NCBI GenBank assembly: GCA_016650125.1
Contig: JAENWT010000007.1
Coordinates: 96,297-139,943 of the forward strand
DNA length: 43,647 bases
From: Thermoleophilia bacterium
Lineage (GTDB): Bacteria; Actinomycetota; Thermoleophilia; Solirubrobacterales; 70-9
Reading direction: 5' to 3'
Shown here piece by piece: positions 7,936 through 8,107 of the stretch. Below the pieces are notes generated by a model that was not told where the DNA came from, ran no database searches, and was given only the letters and a program-made list of their open reading frames with translations. A program made the translations under genes and the position numbers. Within the stretch, counting starts at the first letter, position 1, and every line of letters begins with the position of its first letter.

Positions 7936-8007
7936 GAGGTGGGACGGTGAAGGTCCGCTCGGCCGGCTCCGCCGGGAGTTCCGATCGGACCTTCACCGAC
8001 CCACCTC
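7936..8007. repeat. Long imperfect palindrome (72-base hairpin)
   Basis: The arms 7937-7957 and 7986-8006 are 21 bases long and complementary except at one position; a flanking G-C pair extends the stem, and inner bases 7959-7962 pair with 7981-7984 after one mismatch. It lies between the convergent cysC and PHP genes. The stem is far longer than a normal terminator and has no T-run after it. It could be a bidirectional terminator, a structured RNA, or the remnant of a small palindromic mobile element. Confidence 0.75.
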
Positions 8008-8023
8008 TTGAAGAGATGTAGAC

Positions 8024-8044
8024 AGGGCGGCCCTTGGCCGCCCT
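8024..8044. terminator. GC-rich terminator-like hairpin
   Basis: AGGGCGGCC (8024-8032) and GGCCGCCCT (8036-8044) form a perfect 9-base stem with loop CTT, followed by TCGTCTTG. The T content after the stem is modest. It would end cysC transcription, and by symmetry could act on the opposing PHP transcript. Confidence 0.6.
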
Positions 8045-8061
8045 TCGTCTTGCAATGGGGA

Positions 8062-8107
8062 TTCTTTGCCGCGTTTTGGTCCTATATGCACCCAACGCGG
8101 CAAAGAA
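8062..8107. terminator. Perfect 14-base inverted repeat, probable bidirectional terminator
   Basis: TTCTTTGCCGCGTT (8062-8075) is exactly matched by AACGCGGCAAAGAA (8094-8107) around an 18-base loop in which GGT/ACC can also pair. Its A/T-rich outer ends give each strand a weak T-tract, suiting a two-way terminator between cysC and the PHP gene, whose stop is only 8 bases away. Confidence 0.65.

Follow-up and report, generated by a model that had tools for sequence, protein, structure and literature searches.

A palindrome beside cysC probably belongs to a dispersed family of coding palindromes in a genus of Solirubrobacterales

We analyzed a 43,647-nt stretch of DNA from a Thermoleophilia bacterium (GenBank GCA_016650125.1), here called the window, which sits on contig 7 of its own genome (G000; 2.83 Mb, 41 contigs). 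Three hairpins lie between cysC and a convergent PHP-domain gene, and in our best reading they are three different things: a repeated palindrome, the cysC terminator and a separate REP-like repeat. Hairpin 1, the longest, is probably an intergenic member of a non-autonomous dispersed palindromic repeat family comparable to the coding palindromes known from Rickettsia and Wolbachia. We put the probability of this reading, including the roles of hairpins 2 and 3, at roughly 0.7. The comparison set consists of 18 genomes of the genus, G000 and 17 sisters.

Hairpin 1 (7936..8007, + strand) is a 72-nt palindrome that starts 15 bases past the cysC stop codon. Its arms (7936-7962 and 7981-8007) are 27 nt long and 93% complementary with two mismatches, one of which falls in the outer 21 nt. 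The conserved tip, GGCCGGCTCCGCCGGGAGTTCC (7961..7982, +), defines its orientation. Matches in the sister genomes share this tip; their arms differ in sequence, yet are complementary in most (two L011 copies and one L010 copy show little or no arm pairing). Across the family the tip, GGCCGG(A)CTTCGCCGGGAGTTCC, is fixed, and the two sides of the long stem change together. In the covariation analysis (27 of 31 rows), 24 of 31 pairs had changed on both sides, and 140 double-change cells were counted, where shuffles gave 40.8. On every measure, all 500 shuffles scored lower. Related rows alone can exceed shuffles without any structure; the slid structures used as controls keep the relatedness and still score far lower.

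A covariance model of the family (R1) matches hairpin 1 at G000:C7:104230-104305 with an E value of 1.3e-13. The search across relatives that the initial annotation had proposed returned 67 rows, or at least 51 places after 16 other-strand rows were merged, in 15 of the 18 genus genomes; the count is a lower bound, since scoring was limited to 150 candidates per genome. The matches are mostly 73-107 nt long. Of the 18 genomes, 11 contain a 23-nt tip pattern, also a lower bound because the pattern misses a 22-nt tip variant present in G000. The same pattern had no match in 32 other genomes of the same taxonomic family outside the genus, an absence that holds for that pattern only. As far as tested, hairpin 1 and its relatives are restricted to one Solirubrobacterales genus. 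A separate set of palindromes in G000 (L155 13193, L170 5774 and L171 19503) has a constant outer arm, GGCAGTGAAAT, and a variable inner part, which is the layout of hairpin 1 reversed.

Most members of the family lie inside genes. Among the 51 places, 38 are in frame within a gene and 13, including the window copy, are in spacers. The coding places fall in nuoG (12), dnaX (8), nuoC (7), the 2-oxoacid dehydrogenase E2 gene (7), rpsE (2), nuoF (1) and one unidentified gene. Pfam confirmed one example each of dnaX, E2, the nuoG type, nuoC, nuoF and rpsE, and the rest were named by similarity to these; one E2 copy of G015 is probably counted twice, the gene being broken over the ends of contigs C143 and C23. 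Pfam domains flank the insert on both sides in the NuoG and E2 examples and lie beside it in those of dnaX, nuoC, nuoF and S5. The inserts in NuoF and S5 are in the C-terminal tail. One ribosomal protein S5 in G014 (L244 1010-2026) is 339 residues long, with two palindrome copies in its long C-terminal tail. Among the 13 spacer copies, 7 lie no more than 18 nt behind a stop codon, three of these being weak model matches (E 8e-6 to 7e-4). All three copies in G000 are in spacers, two of them 13 and 18 nt past a stop codon and the third 3 nt past one (model coordinates).

Coding copies use a single reading frame in each orientation. Among coding copies whose tip differs from the 23-nt form by no more than 4 mismatches, every tip (13 of 13 forward, 14 of 14 reverse) starts at a codon boundary; the orthologues are related and so the cases are not all independent. 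All three forward frames are open in 20 of 31 rows. In all 25 copies scored, the element's codons agree less well with the window-trained usage than do those of the remaining host gene. The read-through peptide is rich in Gly, Pro and Thr, and reads VG.P.GRTSPGVP.GPPT or VGG..GTPGEVRP.GPPT depending on orientation. The same DNA tip is thus read in two registers, and therefore it is conserved at the level of DNA or RNA. That each orientation keeps to one frame suggests that unsuitable peptides are selected against.

Orthologous genes differ between genomes in whether they carry the element. The dnaX linker contains a palindrome in G010, G009, G011, G012 and G006; none was seen in G001, G008, G014, G015, G013, G007, G016, G017, G003 and G000, in a survey that excludes G002, G004 and G005, which were not readable by script. 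At L224, L228, L229, L209 and L198, dnaX loci of five sister genomes, a long hairpin separates the gamma and tau parts. In nuoG, R1-type copies occur in 10 genomes (15 of 16 loci readable) and are lacking in G001, G007 and G016, excluding G017 (not spanned) and G004 and G011 (no nuoG locus obtained). The orientation of the palindrome at the nuoG site varies between species. In E2, copies are present in G009, G010, G011, G014 and, over contig ends, G015. No R1 copy was found in E2 of G000, G001, G004, G005, G007, G012, G016 and G017, and 8 of 20 E2 loci were not spanned (those of G015, G006, G013, G002, G008 and G003, and the second loci of G011 and G009). The nuoG genes of G000 and G005 contain palindromes with another tip. 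In G000 (L268, G000:C5 near 124486-126495) there are two in-frame linker palindromes with unrelated arms and a shared tip, GGAGCCG[A/C]CGTCCCGGCGGA; the G005 tip is similar. They are possibly a second family of coding palindromes.

Simple descent with the host gene does not account for the copies, as both their best matches and their identities indicate. The best match of 24 coding copies is in another gene of another genome in 16 cases, in another gene of the same genome in 2 and in the same gene of another genome in 6. Copies in different genes of one genome are 75.5% identical (27 pairs), compared with 70.3% for copies in the same gene of different genomes (50 pairs). Genome labels beat label shuffles (0.0155) and gene labels do not (0.21). 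The R1 copies also form doublets: in all eight pairs less than 160 nt apart within a gene, a forward copy is followed by a reverse copy, at a spacing of 84-141 nt.

We propose that the family is a non-autonomous element that dispersed within genomes, perhaps by way of hairpins of single-stranded DNA. Its route would be transposition or templated copying, and it probably has no cellular function. The hairpin itself is preserved while the stem sequence drifts, both sides changing together around the fixed asymmetric tip. The element may settle where a long hairpin does little harm, either a few bases past a stop codon or in protein linkers and C-terminal tails. Within genes its GC-rich arms would be read through in one preferred frame, in either orientation. 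Part of the covariation may come from template switching between the arms, which may also turn the tip around, as the differing orientations at the nuoG site suggest.

Several observations weigh against this proposal. Neither a clean empty site nor a target-site duplication was found among orthologues, whose linkers are too diverged. The Y1/RAYT transposase domain PF01797 had no match in G000, the genome searched, and 5 of 14 control genomes were positive. Because neither an empty site nor a transposase was found, mobility is deduced from dispersal. For hairpin 1 the initial annotation had suggested either a structured RNA or a mobile element of palindromic form. What we observe is a palindromic repeat that is dispersed and has a covarying stem, and movement itself is the deduced part. 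Copies in the same gene across species could be old insertions combined with gene conversion instead of fresh jumps, and six of the 24 coding copies indeed find their best match in the same gene. The restriction of each orientation to one frame, and the way a few genes recur as hosts, hint at some use at the protein or mRNA level. A ninth pair, in dnaX of G011 and outside the R1 list, departs from the forward-reverse order: its second copy is decayed and points the same way as the first. Finally, the genomes are in many contigs, the named relatives are metagenome-assembled genomes, and genes were called by a codon-usage caller trained on the window itself.

Part of the evidence would also fit if nothing selected the hairpin. 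In this alternative, old insertions are kept palindromic by quasi-palindrome correction, in which template switching between arms makes both sides change together. Arms could then covary while the protein may need just a loose Gly/Pro linker, and arm flipping would give the species differences in orientation at nuoG. It leaves unexplained the fixed tip common to unrelated genes and the dispersal to several genes and spacers. We consider it rather improbable as the whole account; it may act together with dispersal of a repeat. A selected cis-acting mRNA hairpin, with a role in stability, pausing or gamma/tau frameshifting in dnaX, seems less probable still. Other bacteria make gamma from dnaX by frameshifting. 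The strong stem covariation, the presence of G-U type mismatches and the recurrence of copies in the same few genes and just past stop codons all agree with a selected hairpin. However, both orientations occur, in genes and spacers alike, and many orthologues lack the element. Wobble mismatches were also tried as a guide to the strand polarity of hairpin 1. This was given up, the counts (46 against 22, not independent) being a weak guide.

The hairpins might also all be terminators, stacked between the two convergent genes that they serve; of these alternatives we consider this the least likely. Pfam identifies the flanking genes, in agreement with the initial annotation, as cysC (APS kinase, PF01583; 7369..7920, +) and a convergent PHP-domain gene (PF02811; 8115..8921, -). 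The convergent order is found in many relatives, and the spacer between the genes is very variable. Hairpin 2 (8024..8044, +) is a terminator-type GC stem with perfect 9-bp arms (8024-8032 and 8036-8044), a 3-nt loop and the tail TCGTCTTG, which has 4 T in 8. GC stems with 9 or more pairs, each followed by a T-rich tail, lie within 160 nt past cysC in 12 of 17 sister genomes and are mostly of the type AAGGGCGGGCC-loop-GGCCCGCCCTT; no such stem and tail lies within that distance at L062, L066, L073, L077 and L078. Hairpin 2 matches these stems in place and resembles them in sequence, though its tail is weaker, and by position, sequence and conservation it is predicted to be the cysC terminator. 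Hairpin 3 (8062..8107, +) ends 7 bases from the PHP stop codon. On the other hand, hairpins 1 and 3 have no T tracts, and both belong to repeat families known from other settings. A pattern scan that asks for 5 T in 8 lists no terminator in the interval, which counts little since it misses hairpin 2 too.

As a whole, the 194-nt interval between cysC and the PHP gene folds at -116.8 kcal/mol, compared with -72.0 ± 4.5 kcal/mol for 200 shuffles (z -9.9). Hairpins 1 and 3 are the only inverted repeats in the window with a score of at least 11, and hairpin 2, with 9 pairs, is below this threshold. The arms as computed bear out the initial description of 21-base arms with one mismatch, a perfect 9-base stem and a perfect 14-base repeat. 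No Rfam family was found in the window at the gathering score. A lax threshold gave 40 matches, 31 of them to microRNA precursors. All are under the gathering score (E down to 1.5e-4), and we take them as the chance matches of any long hairpin.

According to the portion of PMC2229807 consulted, Rickettsia and Wolbachia are the best-known hosts of palindromes read in frame in many conserved genes, and enterobacterial and neisserial repeats add scattered cases. The Rickettsia palindromic elements (RPE) and the Wolbachia palindromic elements are likewise found both in spacers and in frame in conserved genes, where they are tolerated, and form several families (parts of PMC2229807 and PMC10969869). 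The RPE are given there as 105-146 nt, whereas the hairpin 1 family is about 75 nt. The latter also differs in its phylum, Actinomycetota, its GC-rich sequence, its location in linkers and tails and its forward-reverse doublets. The likeness is one of description; from phylum and GC content, sequence homology to the Rickettsia families is unlikely. ERIC/RU-1, RU-3 and Correia elements are also short hairpin-forming repeats readable in frame in genes and resemble the family by description, but are longer, at about 100-170 bp in the same part of PMC2229807. Miniature inverted-repeat transposable elements are similarly short and non-autonomous with inverted repeats. No target duplication or terminal TA is evident here; orthologues provide no clean empty site, and the search for a parent element was limited to PF01797. 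REP, BIME and REPIN sequences, as presented in the part of PMC3733652 consulted, are short dispersed palindromes with inverted doublets and species-specific families, some inside genes. The same part defines REPs by GTAG/CGTC tags. The stems here are 14 to about 27 bp, G000 has no PF01797, and there is no fixed end tag. Among the 31 rows of hairpin 1, whose 32-nt arms are mostly paired stem, GTAG turns up somewhere in the arms of 2 and CGTC in those of 18, and by this criterion we rejected a tagged REP as its identity.

A broader reading, to which we give even odds, is that Solirubrobacterales carry an evolving set of palindromes, with tips differing by species, that supplies Gly/Pro linkers to essential proteins (DnaX, complex I, E2 and S5) whatever the palindrome's orientation, often as forward-reverse doublets. 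This would be an independent origin of Rickettsia-type coding palindromes in Actinomycetota by a non-RAYT route. The two palindromes in nuoG of G000, with their own tip and unrelated arms, are as this reading predicts. Our literature search, which covered few subscription papers, gave no report on palindromic repeats of Solirubrobacter or Thermoleophilia, or on actinobacterial coding palindromes, among the matches listed. A family this dense in a distant phylum, placed in essential genes and strongly covarying in its stem, would make it possible to study the spread of such repeats, the reasons for their tolerance and whether short repeats generally supply protein linkers.

Hairpin 3 is a 46-nt palindrome with perfect 14-bp arms (8062-8075 and 8094-8107) and an 18-nt loop that contains the asymmetric conserved core GGTCCTATATGCAC (8078..8091, +). 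A genome-wide count of the 72-base palindrome had been suggested as a check; it has 3 copies in G000, and the multicopy element is instead hairpin 3, with 26. A search located 24 of these, and two more (C5:71072 and C3:211938) came from a pattern that tolerates as many as 2 mismatches. The backward control pattern had no match. No match to the hairpin 3 pattern was found in the 17 other genus genomes, and exact scans of the genome_contigs and viral_contigs collections, from which records near G000 are possibly omitted, found none. The copies share both arms and the loop core; the right arm is near-invariant and the left arm more variable. All but two are clear of called genes. The exceptions, L005 and L152, run into the 5' end of an adjacent gene as called; we put this down to the choice of start codon.

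The initial annotation had read hairpins 2 and 3 as terminators for each strand, which agrees with our result for hairpin 2 but not for hairpin 3. The neighbours of its copies are convergent at 12 places, tandem at 7 and divergent at 5, and at 2 one neighbour is off the contig. In a 400-kb sample, about 38% of the classed intergenic sequence is in convergent spacers, so there is no clear enrichment, and hairpin 3 has no T tract on either side. Nor is a base-paired RNA supported, since arm changes are mostly uncompensated; position 5 is G in 12 of 26 copies, with the opposite C in only 2. The 8-nt flanks hold GTAG in none and CGTC in 6 of the 26 copies. We read hairpin 3 as a species-restricted REP-like repeat that is unrelated to hairpin 1 and presumably mobile too.

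Other shared repeats, several of them palindromic, flank many of the 26 loci and make up 24% of flank bases (1%-64% per locus). Around the copies L002, L003, L025 and L029 is a mosaic of further palindromes, such as the 49-nt GAAGTGACC...GGCCAC[A/G]TAGCGGCC...GGTCACTTC. These clusters are BIME-like and resemble REP/BIME/REPIN arrangements. A further 46-nt palindrome family, TTGAAGAAT...GAGCGCTATATGGCCG...ATTCTTCAA, was seen at L110 and L113-L123 in G013 and at L111 in G009; it adjoins the PHP stop codon in G013 and also occurs elsewhere. The cysC-PHP hairpin of G013, used as a query, has 12 matches in G013 (itself included) and one in G009, and some arms show paired changes. Its loop has CTATATG in common with hairpin 3, and the two may possibly belong to one superfamily.
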